A DNA stretch of 64,000 nt, taken from an uncultured Caulobacterales bacterium. Lineage in GTDB: Bacteria > Pseudomonadota > Alphaproteobacteria > Caulobacterales > Maricaulaceae. Location of the stretch: contig CANNER010000003.1 in the NCBI GenBank assembly GCA_947503715.1, positions 124,001-188,000 of the forward strand. The letters run 5' to 3'. Under the pieces are notes generated by a model, which made no database searches, was not told where the DNA came from, and saw only the letters and a list, made by a program, of their open reading frames with translations. Position numbers and translations under genes: made by a program. Shown here piece after piece: positions 629-19,342 of this stretch (position 1 is its first letter; each line of letters starts with the position of its first letter).

Positions 629-1549
629 TTAGGAGCCGGCAACCGCGGCTGCGACTTCTGCGGCGAAGTCTTCTTCTTTTTTCTCAATGCCGTCGCCGAC
701 TTCCATGCGGACATAGCCCGTCATTTTGATGTCTGCGCCGAGGGATTTTGCTTCATTGGCGATGATTGTTTCAACATTGTGATCCGGGTCCATGACGAAC
801 ATCTGTGTCATCAGGACAGACTCTTTGAAGAACTTGACCATGCGGCCTTCGACCATTTTGTCGACAATCGCTTCCGGCTTACCGGATTCAATCGCTTCGT
901 CTTTCAAAGCTTTACGCTCTTTTGCGACGAGGTCTTGGTCCAGATCGTCAGTTGTCAGTGCGAGCGGCGATGTTGCAGCAATGTGCATGGCGATTTTCTT
1001 GGCCAATGCACCGAGTGCGGCTTGGTCACCAGTGGATTCCAGTGCAACCAACACACCGATCTTACCCATGCCTGGTGCAACCGAGTTATGGATATAACCA
1101 CTGACAACACCAGCAGACACGGACAGTTTCGCCATACGACGCAAGGACATGTTCTCGCCGATTTTGGCGACGAGCGATGTCAGGTAATCCGTGACAGTCT
1201 TACCTTCAACATGCGCTTCACGCAGCTCTTCAGTGTTGCTCACACCGAGAGCAGCCGTTGCGACTTTGGCAACTGCGGCTTGGAAGCCATCGTTACGGGC
1301 AACAAAGTCAGTCTCGGAGTTTACTTCTACGAGCACGCCTGATGTGGCATCTGTTTCAAATGCGACAAGACCTTCTGCCGCAACGCGACCGGCTTTCTTG
1401 TCCGCCTTCGCGATACCTTTCATACGCAACCAGTCGATTGCCTTTTCGATGTCGCCGTCATTTTCGCTGAGGGCTTTTTTGCAGTCCATCATGCCGGCAG
1501 ACGTTGCGTCGCGCAGCTCTTTCACGAGTTTAGCTGTGATAGCAGCCAT
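629..1549 (-). CDS. tsf: Elongation factor Ts
   Basis: Guanine-nucleotide exchange factor that regenerates EF-Tu-GTP during translation elongation. The 306 residues match the normal length. The N-terminal UBA-like domain (residues 1-55) contains LRDATSAGMMDCKKAL. The core domain includes the NSETDFVARND signature near residue 80, which contacts EF-Tu. The ATG is preceded by an AGGAGACCG-type ribosome site. It lies about 75 bases downstream of rpsB on the same strand, so the two are probably one transcript. Confidence 0.97.
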   Translation of the reverse strand: MAAITAKLVKELRDATSAGMMDCKKALSENDGDIEKAIDWLRMKGIAKADKKAGRVAAEGLVAFETDATSGVLVEVNSETDFVARNDGFQAAVAKVATAALGVSNTEELREAHVEGKTVTDYLTSLVAKIGENMSLRRMAKLSVSAGVVSGYIHNSVAPGMGKIGVLVALESTGDQAALGALAKKIAMHIAATSPLALTTDDLDQDLVAKERKALKDEAIESGKPEAIVDKMVEGRMVKFFKESVLMTQMFVMDPDHNVETIIANEAKSLGADIKMTGYVRMEVGDGIEKKEEDFAAEVAAAVAGS

Positions 1550-4426: not shown

Positions 4427-7400
4427 TTACGCGGCGATCTCTACTATTGTCTCTACCGCACTATTTGCCTTGATCGCCTTCCGGATAGCCGGATCAATCC
4501 CCCACTTGCCCTCTAATCGCCAAGCCGCCTCTCGCATCTCTCCAATCGGAGCGATAATTTCGATATAGCCGCTCATCTGGTAAGGCGAGTTTTGCAGGCC
4601 TTCTAATGTCCGTTGAAGCTCATCGAGCGTTTCGATACTCGCCTGACGCAGACGGATTTTCAGGCCTGCTGGTGCGACAGGCGCGGCTTCCCCTGCCCCG
4701 CCTTCAACGCCGTCCAGCATTTGCACGCCGTCACAGAACAGGCGCGTTTCACCGTCATTGCGTTCAGCCTTCACCTGCATGCGGATAATATTGCCCGCCG
4801 ACAGAATGTCACGATGCGGTGTCAGGATGTTCTCACTGACGAGGACTTCGTAGTCTCCCGTCGGGTCGGACAATTCGACAAAGGCAAAACGCTTGCCGCG
4901 TTTGGAGACGCGTTCCTGTTTCTTCCGCACGACACCGGCAACCGTGTAATTTCCCACGCCCGCATCTTCCAACCGCTCGGCCAGCATGAGCCCGGTCAGT
5001 TTATCCATATGCTCGTCCAGCGGATGACCGCCGAGATAGAACCCGACCGCGCCGAGTTCGTGTCCCAACTGGTCCATCTGCGACCAGGATTCCGCATAGT
5101 TCAGATCGGGGTCTTTGATCTCCACCGTGGCATCGCCAAACAGGCTGACCTGCGCACTCTCGCGTTCCTGCGCTGCGAGTGTGCCCATGCTCTGGATAAG
5201 ACCCGCATTGGCCAGCACCATGGCGCGGTTTGGTTCAATACAATCAAAGGCACCGGACCGGGCGAGATTTTCAATCGCGCGTTTATTCACCTGGCGCATA
5301 TCGACACGCCGCGCAAAGTCATAGAGCGAGACGAACGGACCGCCCTCCTCCCGTACGGCGACGAGATGTTTCATCGCTTCCAAGCCCACATTTTTCAGCG
5401 CGCCCAGCGCGTAGAGCACATCGCCGTCTTCAACATCGAAATCTGCCTGACTGCCATTGATACAGGGTGGTCGCACGGTGACATCCATCCGCTTGGCTTC
5501 CTGATAGAATTGCACCAGCTTTTCCACATTGGCGAGGTCGAGCGACATGATCGCAGCGAGAAATTCCGTCGTGTGCAACGCTTTCAGATAGGCCGTGCGG
5601 AAGGTAATCATTGCATAGGCGGCAGCGTGGGATTTATTGAATCCATAACCCGCAAATTCATTAACGAGATCGAAAATGCCGGACGCCTGATCCTTGTCCA
5701 CGCCGCGTTCGACGGCTCCGTCGATAAATTTGCCCTTTTGGCGGTTCATTTCCGCTTGGTCTTTCTTCCCCATCGCCCGGCGCAGCAAATCCGCGTCTGC
5801 CAAGGTAAAGCCGGACAGAACCCGTGCAATTTCCATCACCTGTTCCTGATAGATGATAATGCCGTAAGTTTCTTTCAGCGTGTCTTCCAGCTTCGGATGC
5901 GGATAAGTGATTTCCTGCCGGCCCCATTTGCGCTCGACATAATCGGGAATGTTCCGCATCGGCCCCGGACGATAGAGCGAGATCAGGGCGGTCAGTTCTT
6001 CCAGACTGGCAGGCGCGAGTTTGCGCAACACATCCCGCATGCCGGAACTTTCCAGCTGAAACACACCAGCAGAGAGACCTTCCGCCAAGGGCTTGTAAGC
6101 TTCGGGTACGGTGGTTTTGAGATGGTCGACATCAACCTCGATACCCTGTTTTTTAAGATAACCGACGCAGCGTTGGATGACGGTCAGCGTTTTCAGGCCC
6201 AGAAAATCGAACTTCACGAGGCCCGCTTTTTCCGCCCATTTCATCGTGAACTGCGTGGCGGGAATGTCCGCGCGTGGGTCCTGATAAAGCGGAACAATCT
6301 GCGTCAACGGACGATCCCCGATGACCACACCCGCCGCATGGGTCGAGGCGTTGCGGTAGAGCCCTTCCAGCTTCAGCGCCGTGTCGAGCAATCGCTTCAC
6401 AGCAGGTTCCGAATCCCGCGCGGCTTTCAAGGCAGGCTCCATGCTGATGGCCTGTTTCAGGGAGACCGGATTGGCTGGATTGGACGGCACAAGTTTCGCG
6501 AGGCGGTCCACCTGCCCCAGCGGCATTTGCATGACGCGGCCGACATCCCGCACGACGGCGCGGGCTTGCAACGTTCCAAAGGTGATAATCATCGCGACCT
6601 GCCCGTCACCATATTTGCGGCGGACATAGTCGATGACTTCGCCGCGACGTTCCTGACAGAAATCGATATCGAAGTCGGGCATGGACACCCGTTCGGGGTT
6701 CAGGAACCGCTCAAAGAGGAGGCCATATCTCAACGGGTCCAGATCGGTAATGGTCAACGCCCAAGCCACGACAGAGCCCGCACCGGAACCCCGCCCCGGT
6801 CCGACCGGAATATCGTGATCTTTCGCCCATTGGATGAAATCCGCAACGATCAGGAAATAACCCGGAAAACCCATATTCTTGATAATATTGAGTTCGAATT
6901 CCAAACGCTCAAAATAAGCCTCACGTGGCTCGGCGAGTTCAACTTCGCTCAGGCGTTTTTCCAAACCCTTTTTGGCTTGGCTATCCAGAATATCATCCTC
7001 GGAATAGGACCCGTCACCAAAACTCGGCAGGATGGGCGCATGTTTTGGCACGCGATAGGCACAGCGCTGCGCAATTTGTAATGTGTTTTCAATCGCTTCC
7101 GGGAGATCGCTAAACAGGTTGACCATCTCTTCTGACGATTTAAAATAGTGATGCAGGGAAAGTTTCCGGCGATCCTTTTCCAGCACATAGGTGCTCTCCG
7201 ACATGGCCAGCAAGACGTCATGTGCCTTGTGCATATCGGGGTCGAGGAAATAGGGCTCATTCGTAGCGACGAGTGGAAGGTTATGCTTATAGGCGAGGTC
7301 CAGCAGACCCGCTTCCGTGGCCGCACTTTCCTCCGGCGTGTGGCGCTGAATTTCGACATAGAGCCTGTCGGGGAAGAGCGTCATCAACCGCGAGAGCCAG

Positions 7401-7885
7401 CTTTCCGCCTCAGCCATACGGCCGTCTTTGATAAGTTTATTCAGGACCCCGTCCTGCCCGCCCGTCAGGGCAATCACGCCCTCCGTATTGCCGTCCAGAC
7501 GGGAGGCTTTCAGATGCGGATAATCCGTCGATTCAATTTCGAGATAGCAAGCCGAGGACAGATCCATCAGGTTACCATAGCCGGCCTCATCCTGCGCCAG
7601 TAAAACCAGCGTGCCATCGGGGTCTTTGTGAATCTGACCGGGTTGGCGCGGGCCTTCCAAATCCATGGTCAGCGTGACACCGATAATGGGCTGAACCCCC
7701 TCGCCCGCAACGGTTTCGCAAAACTCCAGCGCGCCGCAGAGATTATTTGTATCCGTAATGGCCAGGGCGGGTTGGCGATAGCGCACACAACGCTCGGCCG
7801 TTTCACGGATTTTCAGAGCTCCTTCCAGCATGGAATAGGGCGAGCGCATACGCAGGTGGACAAAATCACGGGCTATGCGGCTCAT
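4427..7885 (-). CDS. dnaE: DNA polymerase III subunit alpha
   Basis: Replicative DNA polymerase catalytic subunit, 1152 residues, normal for DnaE1. It has an N-terminal PHP domain (FVHLRMRSPYSMLEG). The polymerase core carries the catalytic aspartates in PDFDIDFCQ and in FDFLGLKTL. Helix-hairpin-helix motifs follow, then an internal beta-clamp-binding peptide, QVSLF, around residue 920. The C-terminal OB fold is YTVAGVVRKK..., ending in a tau-binding-type tail. The ATG at 7885 (MSRIARDF) is chosen over 7897 because GGGAG stands 5 bases before it. It lies 24 bases downstream of a LexA-boxed 31-codon gene on the same strand and may be partly co-transcribed with it. Confidence 0.97.
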   Translation of the reverse strand: MSRIARDFVHLRMRSPYSMLEGALKIRETAERCVRYRQPALAITDTNNLCGALEFCETVAGEGVQPIIGVTLTMDLEGPRQPGQIHKDPDGTLVLLAQDEAGYGNLMDLSSACYLEIESTDYPHLKASRLDGNTEGVIALTGGQDGVLNKLIKDGRMAEAESWLSRLMTLFPDRLYVEIQRHTPEESAATEAGLLDLAYKHNLPLVATNEPYFLDPDMHKAHDVLLAMSESTYVLEKDRRKLSLHHYFKSSEEMVNLFSDLPEAIENTLQIAQRCAYRVPKHAPILPSFGDGSYSEDDILDSQAKKGLEKRLSEVELAEPREAYFERLEFELNIIKNMGFPGYFLIVADFIQWAKDHDIPVGPGRGSGAGSVVAWALTITDLDPLRYGLLFERFLNPERVSMPDFDIDFCQERRGEVIDYVRRKYGDGQVAMIITFGTLQARAVVRDVGRVMQMPLGQVDRLAKLVPSNPANPVSLKQAISMEPALKAARDSEPAVKRLLDTALKLEGLYRNASTHAAGVVIGDRPLTQIVPLYQDPRADIPATQFTMKWAEKAGLVKFDFLGLKTLTVIQRCVGYLKKQGIEVDVDHLKTTVPEAYKPLAEGLSAGVFQLESSGMRDVLRKLAPASLEELTALISLYRPGPMRNIPDYVERKWGRQEITYPHPKLEDTLKETYGIIIYQEQVMEIARVLSGFTLADADLLRRAMGKKDQAEMNRQKGKFIDGAVERGVDKDQASGIFDLVNEFAGYGFNKSHAAAYAMITFRTAYLKALHTTEFLAAIMSLDLANVEKLVQFYQEAKRMDVTVRPPCINGSQADFDVEDGDVLYALGALKNVGLEAMKHLVAVREEGGPFVSLYDFARRVDMRQVNKRAIENLARSGAFDCIEPNRAMVLANAGLIQSMGTLAAQERESAQVSLFGDATVEIKDPDLNYAESWSQMDQLGHELGAVGFYLGGHPLDEHMDKLTGLMLAERLEDAGVGNYTVAGVVRKKQERVSKRGKRFAFVELSDPTGDYEVLVSENILTPHRDILSAGNIIRMQVKAERNDGETRLFCDGVQMLDGVEGGAGEAAPVAPAGLKIRLRQASIETLDELQRTLEGLQNSPYQMSGYIEIIAPIGEMREAAWRLEGKWGIDPAIRKAIKANSAVETIVEIAA

Positions 7886-7909
7886 GCGGACTCCCATCGG
7901 GGATTCGCG

Positions 7910-8005
7910 CTAGCCGCCAATCACCATCATCCACATTGTGACGACGGCAACGAAGCCTGCCAAGACGAGCGCGGAAGAAATGTCGTGGATGATTTGGCGT
8001 GTCAT
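7910..8005 (-). CDS. 31-residue membrane protein, SidA-like SOS cell-division inhibitor (candidate)
   Basis: An ATG-initiated frame of 31 codons. It has a short polar start (MTRQIIHDISS), then one continuous hydrophobic helix (ALVLAGFVAVV and TMWMMVI) ending GG. An AGGACAG ribosome site stands in front. A textbook alphaproteobacterial LexA box lies 21-35 bases before the start codon, and dnaE follows 24 bases downstream. In Caulobacter crescentus SidA is a 29-residue inner-membrane protein, LexA-controlled, that blocks division through FtsW/FtsN; as I recall, it lies close to dnaE. Size, topology, regulation and neighbourhood therefore agree. Identity is inferred from these, not from an alignment. 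Most gene callers would miss it because of its length. Confidence 0.72.
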   Translation of the reverse strand: MTRQIIHDISSALVLAGFVAVVTMWMMVIGG

Positions 8006-8025
8006 GGGTCTGTCCTGTTTCGTTT

Positions 8026-8055
8026 GTTCTATTTATGTTCTCTATTAATGAGAAC
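8026..8055 (-). promoter_or_regulatory. LexA operator (GTTC-N7-GTTC) overlapping a palindrome
   Basis: GTTC at 8026-8029 and 8037-8040, separated by exactly 7 bases, is the direct-repeat LexA site of alphaproteobacteria. The second GTTC also opens a perfect inverted repeat, GTTCTC-N7-GAGAAC (8037-8055). A TTGACG that could serve as a -35 box lies just upstream on the minus strand. The position is right for controlling the SidA-like gene, perhaps with dnaE. The divergent permease starts about 95 bases away. Confidence 0.85.
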
Positions 8056-8150
8056 AAAACGTCAACATCCTGTGAATGGACAGGCTGTGGATATTAAGAT
8101 TCACCCCACCAAACGTTGCCCTTAAAGGACGCTGACCTCATACCCACTCC

Positions 8151-9482
8151 ATGACTCGCACCACTTTCACGCCGCGCACGGCTATGGCCATCATCATTGC
8201 AAACATGGTTGGCGTGGGCGTCTTCACGGCGCTTGGCTATCAACTCGCGGACATTGACAGTCTGTTTGCCATCATCATGCTCTGGGTGATTGGCGGTTTG
8301 GCCGCTCTGTGCGGCGCACTCTCATATGCCGAACTGGGCGCGTCCCTGCCGCGCTCCGGCGGGGAATATACGTTTCTGGGCGAGGCTTATCATCCCGCGG
8401 CCGGGTTCATTTCCGGCTGGGTGAGTGCCACGATTGGCTTTGCCGCCCCAACCGCCGTCGTCGCGATTGCCTTTGCCGATTATACGGGCGCGATTTTGCC
8501 GGGCGGCGTGTCGCCCCTGATGCAGAAGATTATTGCCGTCGCGCTCGTCGTCATTCTTGCCGCCCTCCACGCCCGGTCGCGGCATGTGTCCGGCGCGACG
8601 CAGACGATATTTACAGCCGTGAAAATCGCGCTCATCACCGCCTTTATTCTCGCGGCCTTCCTTCTGACCGCAGAGCCGCAGGTCCTGGACCTCGCGCCCA
8701 AAGCGTCCGACCCCGGCGTCATGATGAGCGTCCCCTACGGCATCGCGCTGATCTATGTCTCCTACGCCTATACGGGGTGGAACGCGGCGACCTATGTGTC
8801 GGGCGAGATGTCTAACCCGCAAAAGGACCTGCCGCGCGTTCTGTTCCTCGGCACGGCGCTCGTGACCGTGCTCTACGTCCTCATCAATCTCGCCTTTCTC
8901 TATGCGGCCCCTGTCGAGGCGATGCAGGGCAAGGTCGAGATTGGCTATATCGCGGCGGAAGGCATTTTCGGCGAGACGGGCGGACGGCTGGTTGGCGGAA
9001 TGTTGGCACTGCTCCTCATCTCGACGGTCAGTGCCATGACCCTCGCTGGACCTCGCGCGCTGCAAGCGATTGGCGAGGACTATCACGCCATGCGCTGGCT
9101 CTCGAAAAGCACGGCGGAGGGCGTGCCCTGGCTGGCCATTTGTTTTCAGTCGGGGATCGCCATTTTCTTTATCCTGAGTTCGACCTTTGACGAGATCCTC
9201 GTCTTTGCGGGATCGATGCTGGCCTTTAACAGCCTGCTGGCCATTGTCGGCCTGTTCGTATTGCGGTGGCGTCAACCGGATCTGCCGCGTCCTTACAAGA
9301 CGTGGGGTTATCCGATTGTTCCGTTGATCTACCTGACGATTACGGCGGTCACCTTGGTCTTTGTGATACTGGACCGCCCGAAAGCCGCGCTAGGGGGATT
9401 GGCCCTTATCGCCGTCGGATTTCTCTTTTGGTTCTTAACCCGAAATCTGGGGCATAACAGGCGGAACCCACGGCACGACTAG
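8151..9482 (+). CDS. APC-family amino acid permease
   Basis: Inner-membrane amino acid/polyamine transporter of the APC superfamily, 443 residues with about 12 hydrophobic segments. TM1 carries the unwound-helix motif IIANMVGVGVFTALG, the substrate-binding GxGxF/T region. The LSYAELGASLPRSGGEYTFL stretch is typical of APC cytoplasmic loop 1. Substrate cannot be told. It runs opposite to all neighbours. Its 3' end overlaps the 3' end of lolD by 48 bases, and it uses GC-rich codons more heavily than dnaE or lolC. It interrupts the otherwise co-directional dnaE-lolD-lolC-proS block, which suggests an insertion. No clear ribosome site precedes the ATG. Confidence 0.87.
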   Translation: MTRTTFTPRTAMAIIIANMVGVGVFTALGYQLADIDSLFAIIMLWVIGGLAALCGALSYAELGASLPRSGGEYTFLGEAYHPAAGFISGWVSATIGFAAPTAVVAIAFADYTGAILPGGVSPLMQKIIAVALVVILAALHARSRHVSGATQTIFTAVKIALITAFILAAFLLTAEPQVLDLAPKASDPGVMMSVPYGIALIYVSYAYTGWNAATYVSGEMSNPQKDLPRVLFLGTALVTVLYVLINLAFLYAAPVEAMQGKVEIGYIAAEGIFGETGGRLVGGMLALLLISTVSAMTLAGPRALQAIGEDYHAMRWLSKSTAEGVPWLAICFQSGIAIFFILSSTFDEILVFAGSMLAFNSLLAIVGLFVLRWRQPDLPRPYKTWGYPIVPLIYLTITAVTLVFVILDRPKAALGGLALIAVGFLFWFLTRNLGHNRRNPRHD

Positions 9483-10145
9483 GCCGTCCTGTACCGTTAG
9501 GACGCGGTCAAAGAACGGGACGAGGTTCATATTATGCGTCGCGATCAGGGCGGCGACACCCTCTTGACGGGTCAGGTCGAACAGGCTGCGGAACACACGG
9601 TCCGATGTCGCGGGGTCGAGGTTCCCTGTCGGTTCATCCCCCAGCAGCATTTGCGGACGATTGGCGAGCGCGCGGGCAATGGCCACGCGTTGCTGCTCGC
9701 CACCGGACATCTCGCTGGGGCGATGGGTCAGGCGTCCGCCAAGGCCCATCCCCGTTAGCAGTCGCGCCGCTTCCGCTTCGGCCTTTTTCGCGGCCACGCC
9801 GGAGATCATTTGCGGGATGGCGACATTTTCCAGCGCGGTGAATTCCTTCTGCAGGTGATGGAATTGATAGACGACGCCGACACTCTCACGCCGGATGCGC
9901 GTGCGCTGATCATCGGGCAGTTTCAGGCACTCACGGCCATTGATATAGACTTCGCCCGCATTCGGTTTTTCGAGCAAGCCCGCAGCATGGAGCAGTGTCG
10001 ACTTCCCTGAGCCAGAAGGCCCGACAAGGCCGACCATTTCGCCGGGATAAATGTCAATATCCGCCCCCGCCATAACGGTCAGGGTTCCCCCACCCGACGG
10101 GTAGGAGCGGTGCAGATTGCGAACGGAGAGAATAGGACGCGCCAT
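9435..10145 (-). CDS. lolD: Lipoprotein-releasing ABC transporter ATPase LolD
   Basis: ATPase that powers release of outer-membrane lipoproteins from the inner membrane to LolA. Seen: Walker [10 protein letters not shown] (residue about 40), a Q loop, the signature [15 protein letters not shown], Walker [13 protein letters not shown] and the switch histidine in ATHN. The 236 residues are slightly longer than usual; the tail [13 protein letters not shown] lies in the stretch overlapping the convergent permease. The start directly abuts the lolC stop (shared base 10145), indicating translational coupling. Confidence 0.93.
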
Positions 10146-17958: not shown

Positions 17959-17973
17959 GAACATTGAGTGAAC
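17959..17973 (+). promoter_or_regulatory. LexA operator of dinB
   Basis: GAAC-N7-GAAC (halves at 17959-17962 and 17970-17973) is the complement of the alphaproteobacterial GTTC-N7-GTTC box. It lies 26-40 bases before the dinB start codon, so dinB should be SOS-inducible. It is the same arrangement as the box at 8026. Confidence 0.82.
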
Positions 17974-17998
17974 ATTGTAAAGATTCTATAAAGAGGCC

Positions 17999-19342
17999 AT
18001 GCCCACCCCTGTCACAGATATATCCAGATTATGTCGCGATTGCGGTGCGGCTTTGCTTGCTGCTGAAACCTGCGCGAGCTGCGGCGGGTCGCGCTTTCTG
18101 GCACATCCTGAATTGGGACGGCTCTCCATCGCGCATGTGGATTGCGATGCATTTTATTGCTCGGTCGAAAAGCGGGATGATCCGTCGATTCGCGACAAGC
18201 CTGTGGTTGTCGGCGGCGGAAAACGCGGCGTCGTCTCGGCGGCTTGCTATCACGCGCGGATATATGGTGTGCGCTCCGCAATGCCGATGTTCCAAGCGCT
18301 CAAGCTCTGCCCTGACCTGACCGTCGTCAAAGGCAGTATGGATAAATACGCCTATGAAGGCGGGCGCATTCGGGAGATGATGCGGGCCCTGACGCCGCTC
18401 GTCGAACCGCTCTCGATTGACGAGGCGTTTCTGGATCTGACGGGCACGGAAAGATTGCATGGCCGCACACCCGCCCAGAGCCTGATCAAACTCCAGAATG
18501 ATGTGTTGCGAGAGATCGGTGTGACGGTTTCCATCGGCCTGTCCTACAATAAGTTCCTCGCCAAGACGGCGTCAGACCTCGACAAGCCGCATGGCTTTGC
18601 CGTGCTGGGGGAGGAGGATGCGCAGGCGTTTCTCGCCAAGCAATCGGTTGGGTTCATCTATGGCATTGGTCCCGCTTTCGCAGCGAAGCTGGAAAAAGCG
18701 GGATTGAAGACGATTGCCGATGTGCGGCGGAAAACGGATCGGCAGATGGCGGAACGGTTTGGCGATCACGGGCTGCGTCTCGCAAGGCTGTCGCGCGGAG
18801 AGGACTACCGCAAAGTCAATCCGACGAGTGACCGGAAATCCGTCTCGGCAGAAACAACATTCAACACAGATATTTCTGATCTGGAAAAGCTGAAGGACAA
18901 GCTCTGGCAGGTCTGTCTAAAAACGGCAGATCGGAGCAAAGCGAAAAATTTAGCTGGGCGGACCGTGACGCTGAAACTGAAATCCTCGTCGTTCAAATCC
19001 ATCACGCGGCGGCGGACGTTCCAGCATCCGCTCCAACTCGCGGATGCCATCTTTGCGGCCCTTGAACCACTGCTGGAAGCCGAGGCGGACGGATATAAAA
19101 AATACCGTCTGATCGGCGCGGGGATTTCGGGCCTGACGGAACCGCTGGGCGATGTAGCCGATATGCTGGACGAAAAAGCCGCCAAGCGCGGCGCGGCGGA
19201 ACGTGCCAGTGACATTGCCCGCGCGAAATTCGGAACGGACGCTGTGAAGACCGGACGCGGTCTGCGCTTGCAGAAAGACCGTGAGGAAGCGCGCGGCAGT
19301 CTCGCGGAAAGCCTGCCGAGCAAGCCTCGCGTCGATGATTAG
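17999..19342 (+). CDS. dinB: DNA polymerase IV with N-terminal zinc-ribbon
   Basis: Y-family translesion polymerase, 447 residues. A C12-x2-C15...C25-x2-C28 zinc-ribbon-like segment precedes the polymerase domain, a form common in alphaproteobacterial DinB. Catalytic acidic residues are in AHVDCDAFYCSVE and in LSIDEAFLDLTG. HhH (YGIGPAFAAKLEKAG) and little-finger domains follow, and the tail is basic. A LexA box stands upstream. Its last four bases overlap the convergent gene at 19339. Confidence 0.94.
   Translation: MPTPVTDISRLCRDCGAALLAAETCASCGGSRFLAHPELGRLSIAHVDCDAFYCSVEKRDDPSIRDKPVVVGGGKRGVVSAACYHARIYGVRSAMPMFQALKLCPDLTVVKGSMDKYAYEGGRIREMMRALTPLVEPLSIDEAFLDLTGTERLHGRTPAQSLIKLQNDVLREIGVTVSIGLSYNKFLAKTASDLDKPHGFAVLGEEDAQAFLAKQSVGFIYGIGPAFAAKLEKAGLKTIADVRRKTDRQMAERFGDHGLRLARLSRGEDYRKVNPTSDRKSVSAETTFNTDISDLEKLKDKLWQVCLKTADRSKAKNLAGRTVTLKLKSSSFKSITRRRTFQHPLQLADAIFAALEPLLEAEADGYKKYRLIGAGISGLTEPLGDVADMLDEKAAKRGAAERASDIARAKFGTDAVKTGRGLRLQKDREEARGSLAESLPSKPRVDD

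Follow-up and report, generated by a model that had tools for sequence, protein, structure and literature searches.

The window analysed here, a 64,000-nucleotide stretch of DNA from an uncultured Caulobacterales bacterium, contains a 31-codon frame placed directly before dnaE. The original prediction had described at this place a short frame with a ribosome site, one membrane helix and an exact LexA box, and all of these features are found in the sequence, the membrane helix being a predicted one. The features of the locus are listed in Table 1. An AGGA motif lies about 9 nt 5' of the ATG of the small gene, and the product of the downstream gene matches the NF004226 model ('DNA polymerase III subunit alpha') with 1377.6 bits at a cut-off of 1002. 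The stop codon of the small gene is separated by 12 nt from the first possible start of dnaE and by 24 nt from the second one (7885), which is preceded by GGGAG and is better supported.

Table 1. Features of the dnaE-upstream locus, in coordinates of the window.
Feature	Position	Strand	Evidence or remark
sidA-like gene, 31 aa, MTRQIIHDISSALVLAGFVAVVTMWMMVIGG, ATG start	7910..8005 (stop included)	-	frame, relatives, selection, helix model
LexA operator GAACATAAATAGAAC, 20 nt 5' of the sidA-like ATG	8026..8040	-	pattern scan
Third half-site, GTTC, 11 nt 5' of the first GAAC	8052..8055	-	sequence, alignment; common to close relatives
Ribosome-binding region AACAGGACAGACCC before the sidA-like ATG	8009..8018 (extent approximate)	-	18 nt 5' of the ATG
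dnaE, replicative DNA polymerase III alpha	4427..7897; likely start 7885 (MSRIARDF)	-	NF004226
lolD	9435..10145	-	in many relatives usually located next to the small gene, on its 5' side
Amino-acid permease gene, separating the small gene from lolD here	8151..9482	+	open reading frame, profile match

The gap between the small gene and dnaE varies from 5 to 210 nt in the family to which the window genome belongs (median 56.5 nt) and from 23 to 260 nt in Caulobacteraceae. The short distance points to a single message encoding both the inhibitor and the replicative polymerase, and the two genes are probably co-transcribed. A sigma-70 scan returned a single weak site, located within the sidA-like gene, and did not reveal the position of the promoter. 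The stretch TTAATATCCACA (8086-8097, minus strand), 5' of the LexA box, is conserved in the close relatives. Of the 88 family loci, 12 have a perfect TTWTCCACA, the form of a DnaA box, in their upstream region (0.4 expected), and a DnaA input to sidA-dnaE is possible.

SOS Operators of the Genome

The bare GAACN7GAAC pattern is weak evidence by itself: the window contains five sites (2.3 expected), and the whole genome contains 72, the same number as for the reversed control pattern. Within the window, the GAACAWANNNNGAAC form is unique to the operator at 8026-8040, and the box before the small gene is kept in relatives. The genome encodes LexA (TIGR00498) and RecA (TIGR02012), and GAACN7GAAC is also located 5' of recA, 5' of lexA, between uvrA and ssb and before two DNA polymerase IV-type (dinB) genes. 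Since the same operator is found at all these sites, the small gene carries the genome's own SOS operator.

The window includes a second SOS gene, encoding DNA polymerase IV (17959-19342; NF002751, 612 bits), with GAACATTGAGTGAAC about 25 nt upstream. A radical-SAM gene of the same genome, matched as 'putative DNA modification/repair' (TIGR03916; L141 1455-2795, G000 C4), features a LexA-type box and is likely another SOS gene.

Relation of the Small Protein to SidA

The single-sequence AlphaFold2 model of the peptide is a helix comprising residues 2-30, with a mean pLDDT of 93.8; the model indicates a helix and not a membrane location, which was assigned from hydrophobicity. According to the topology deduced, the charged N-terminus is probably in the cytoplasm. 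With its 31 residues and one predicted membrane helix, the peptide has the size and topology of SidA of Caulobacter crescentus/vibrioides (29 residues, one membrane helix), which is likewise LexA-controlled and located directly before dnaE. In both proteins, position 7/8 is occupied by an acidic residue and the helix contains a GF motif; they differ in the C-terminal half, which contains WMMVIGG in the window peptide and CSVAQLVA in Caulobacter SidA. The hosts differ as well, the window genome being that of a marine relative near Algimonas/Hellea.

In the family f3, taken as Caulobacteraceae because its genera fit, a 29-residue peptide occupies the same place upstream of dnaE. Two of these peptides score 72.4 and 59.7 bits with the NF033228 model 'cell division inhibitor SidA' (cut-off 35), and in a search of whole f3 genomes the matches to this model fall at the dnaE-upstream locus. 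The Caulobacteraceae peptide at this place is therefore SidA, and the linkage of sidA to dnaE given in the original prediction proved correct. The order of LexA box, small gene and dnaE is the same in the window as in Caulobacteraceae. Three genomes of one Caulobacteraceae genus (g21) yielded 31.1, 24.1 and 18.1 bits at the same locus, all under the cut-off, so the range of NF033228 is narrow. One of 14 control genomes, presumably Caulobacter vibrioides, passed the cut-off. The window peptide did not match NF033228, and Pfam returned no match for either the window peptide or SidA. Missed by the current NCBIfam model and smaller than gene callers usually report, the sidA-like gene falls into an annotation gap.

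The relation becomes apparent at the level of profiles. With the profile of non-Caulobacteraceae dnaE-upstream peptides, 19 of 20 SidA sequences outscored every one of 6200 shuffled decoys of the same composition (SidA median 18.9, decoy maximum 13.7). A comparison of the family profile with the Caulobacteraceae profile gave a probability of 95% and a score of 31.8, against no more than 21.6 for column shuffles. The signal of the window subtype alone is weak, with a score of 17.6 to the SidA profile, and shuffles of the membrane segment reach 21.4. The profile built from Caulobacteraceae SidA only gives the window peptide -2.7 bits and fails to place the window family above shuffled decoys, and HMMER iterations started from Caulobacteraceae SidA alone never recruited this family. 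A profile combining the other subtype of the family with SidA gives the window peptide 37 bits. In view of this score and of the missing direct match, the window subtype is tied to SidA by sequence only through intermediates; the SidA relation originally predicted stands for the groups, which profiles link, and not for the single peptide set against the SidA model. Position, operator, size, topology and profile relation together indicate that the window gene is very probably a SidA orthologue.

A Caulobacter-type genome contains a second SidA-like frame, MTRLIRETLAFAAAATFVWAVCVGALVV... (28.5 bits), which is not at the dnaE locus (G113:C3:315102-315185; L152 ~1100-1190, minus strand).

The same features of the peptide suit another kind of protein. 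DinQ and TisB of E. coli act on the membrane itself, and they are not known from a dnaE locus. Both are small SOS-induced membrane peptides (for DinQ, see PMC3567139), of the same size class, with one hydrophobic helix and under LexA control, and the window peptide, which has no direct match to SidA, might depolarise the membrane and slow metabolism in a similar way, with no divisome block. This is unlikely, however, given that authentic SidA is encoded at this same place, that the profiles relate the peptide to SidA and that certain residues recur (the acidic one at position 7/8, GF and often W).

Conservation and Selection

DnaE was located in 91 of the 99 genomes of the window family, and the upstream DNA was read at 90 loci. 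A peptide of 30-34 residues under a LexA-type box is present at 88 of them, in agreement with the expectation that relatives would keep a frame of 25-35 codons at this place. The exact GAACN7GAAC lies within 120 nt in 69 of these 88 loci, where shuffles predict 0.5, a count that is partly circular in that the peptides had been selected using a looser box. Ranking the frames by hydrophobicity, with the box unused, recovers essentially the same peptides. The close relatives named among the matches are Algimonas arctica, Hellea balneolensis and Robiginitomaculum (Robiginitomaculaceae, Maricaulales according to NCBI).

Comparisons of the window gene with its three closest relatives gave pN values of 0.014-0.029 and pS values of 0.25-0.41; across all six pairs of these four genes, pS rises up to 0.57. 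The median non-synonymous/synonymous ratio over 169 wider pairs is 0.20. The 31-codon frame is a real gene under protein-level purifying selection.

This selection bears on the reading in which the small frame couples or tunes the translation of dnaE and the peptide itself is of little role. The short gap in the family (median 56.5 nt, minimum 5 nt) speaks for such coupling, and in genome G002 (L080) the peptide is absent and dnaE is immediately preceded by a LexA box, a hint that SOS regulation of dnaE may be important in its own right. Nevertheless, selection acts on the protein, its membrane-helix character is conserved and Caulobacter SidA, encoded at the same place, has a demonstrated protein function (PMC4211646). 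Moreover, genome G097, whose dnaE locus is without the peptide, apparently retains a copy at another site (G097:C73:76317-76406, profile match 1.1e-5), possibly a relocation. Translational coupling as the main role is thus improbable, slightly more so than a direct action on the membrane. The notion of a chance frame beside a chance operator, which could appeal to the frequency of GAACN7GAAC alone, is refuted by the conservation at 88 of 90 loci, by the exact box at 69 of 88 (0.5 expected; partly circular) and by the selection on the protein.

Distribution among Alphaproteobacteria

In other families of the order, the peptide was found at the dnaE locus in all five genomes of f5 and in two of the seven of f4. 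None of the eight f2 genomes (G100, G104, G108, G112, G116, G120, G180 and G188) has a box-linked peptide at this locus; if this family has an SOS division inhibitor, it is encoded elsewhere.

A mixed profile was run against 115 genomes sampled across the class, almost every one from a family of its own. Matches were obtained in G214 (3.5e-7), G229 (4.1e-5) and G220 (0.0078), each with GAACN7GAAC just before the peptide. The gene order in G214 and G220 is lolD, box, peptide, dnaE. In G229, lolD, box and peptide are seen, the contig stops right after the peptide and the start of dnaE is on another contig. A further match, in G281 (3.5e-4), is part of a long frame lacking a box and was taken as chance.

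Apart from this search, 89 dnaE loci were read. Seven genomes (G215, G220, G252, G268, G280, G292 and G301) have the exact box no more than 600 nt from dnaE, and in all seven a membrane-type small frame follows the box. Controls for these 89 loci, using the opposite strand and five rounds of shuffling, produced no case of a box with a small frame, and a looser operator (GAACN7GAAT/A) added no case class-wide. Of about 90 families sampled, eight outside the order thereby show the arrangement of lolD, LexA box, small membrane peptide and dnaE, with G229 as a probable ninth; for most of the peptides, the divergence is too great for descent to be proven from the sequence alone, and the cases L210 and L214 are assigned by position and operator only. 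The original suggestion that the SidA checkpoint extends beyond the stalked model species is supported and was too narrow, as the arrangement reaches past Caulobacterales.

We lean, by a small margin over even odds, towards SidA as an old alphaproteobacterial checkpoint. The ancestor of many families would have possessed a LexA-controlled membrane micro-protein between lolD and dnaE, which would later have been lost in some families (f2) and kept unannotated in others, and one damage-controlled message would have joined the division block to the replicative polymerase.

Proposed Function

SidA of Caulobacter is a 29-residue inner-membrane protein induced in the SOS response. It binds both FtsW and FtsN, and its proposed action is to hold the FtsW/I/N complex inactive (PMC4211646). 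An AlphaFold 3 model places SidA on TM7 of FtsW with low confidence (PMC13396833). The window genome encodes an FtsW homologue scoring 330.8 bits, close to the 333 bits of a Caulobacter-type genome, and both values are just below the cut-off of 337.5.

By analogy, we consider the window gene to be a sidA orthologue that would halt septation via FtsW/FtsN after DNA damage, with a probability of roughly 80%. DNA damage would lead to RecA filaments and to the self-cleavage of LexA. The operator at 8026-8040 would be freed, and the level of the sidA-dnaE message would presumably rise. The 31-residue protein would then enter the inner membrane as one helix and may dock on FtsW and possibly on FtsN. 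The FtsW/FtsI/FtsN complex would be kept inactive, and septation would wait for repair.

Several known inhibitors resemble the putative SidA of the window. DidA of Caulobacter, compared by description only, is also a small damage-induced membrane inhibitor of FtsW/I/N (PMC4211646); unlike SidA, it is SOS-independent (DriD) and acts through FtsN. YneA of Bacillus, SosA of Staphylococcus and ChiZ of Mycobacterium are SOS-induced single-pass membrane division inhibitors thought to target FtsW (PMC13396833), but they are larger, contain extra parts (a LysM domain in YneA and ChiZ) and have other loci and operators.

Significance for Alphaproteobacteria

As a kind of protein, SidA is known, and the novelty, modest in kind, is a range wider than the SidA model covers. 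SOS division inhibitors have been presented as specific to particular lineages, SidA being known from Caulobacter. With a likely SidA orthologue in a second family, and with look-alikes occupying this locus in unrelated families of Alphaproteobacteria, the evolution of a checkpoint directed at FtsW can be put to a direct test. The binding face could be mapped by aligning the natural variants of this 30-residue inhibitor with FtsW from their own genomes.
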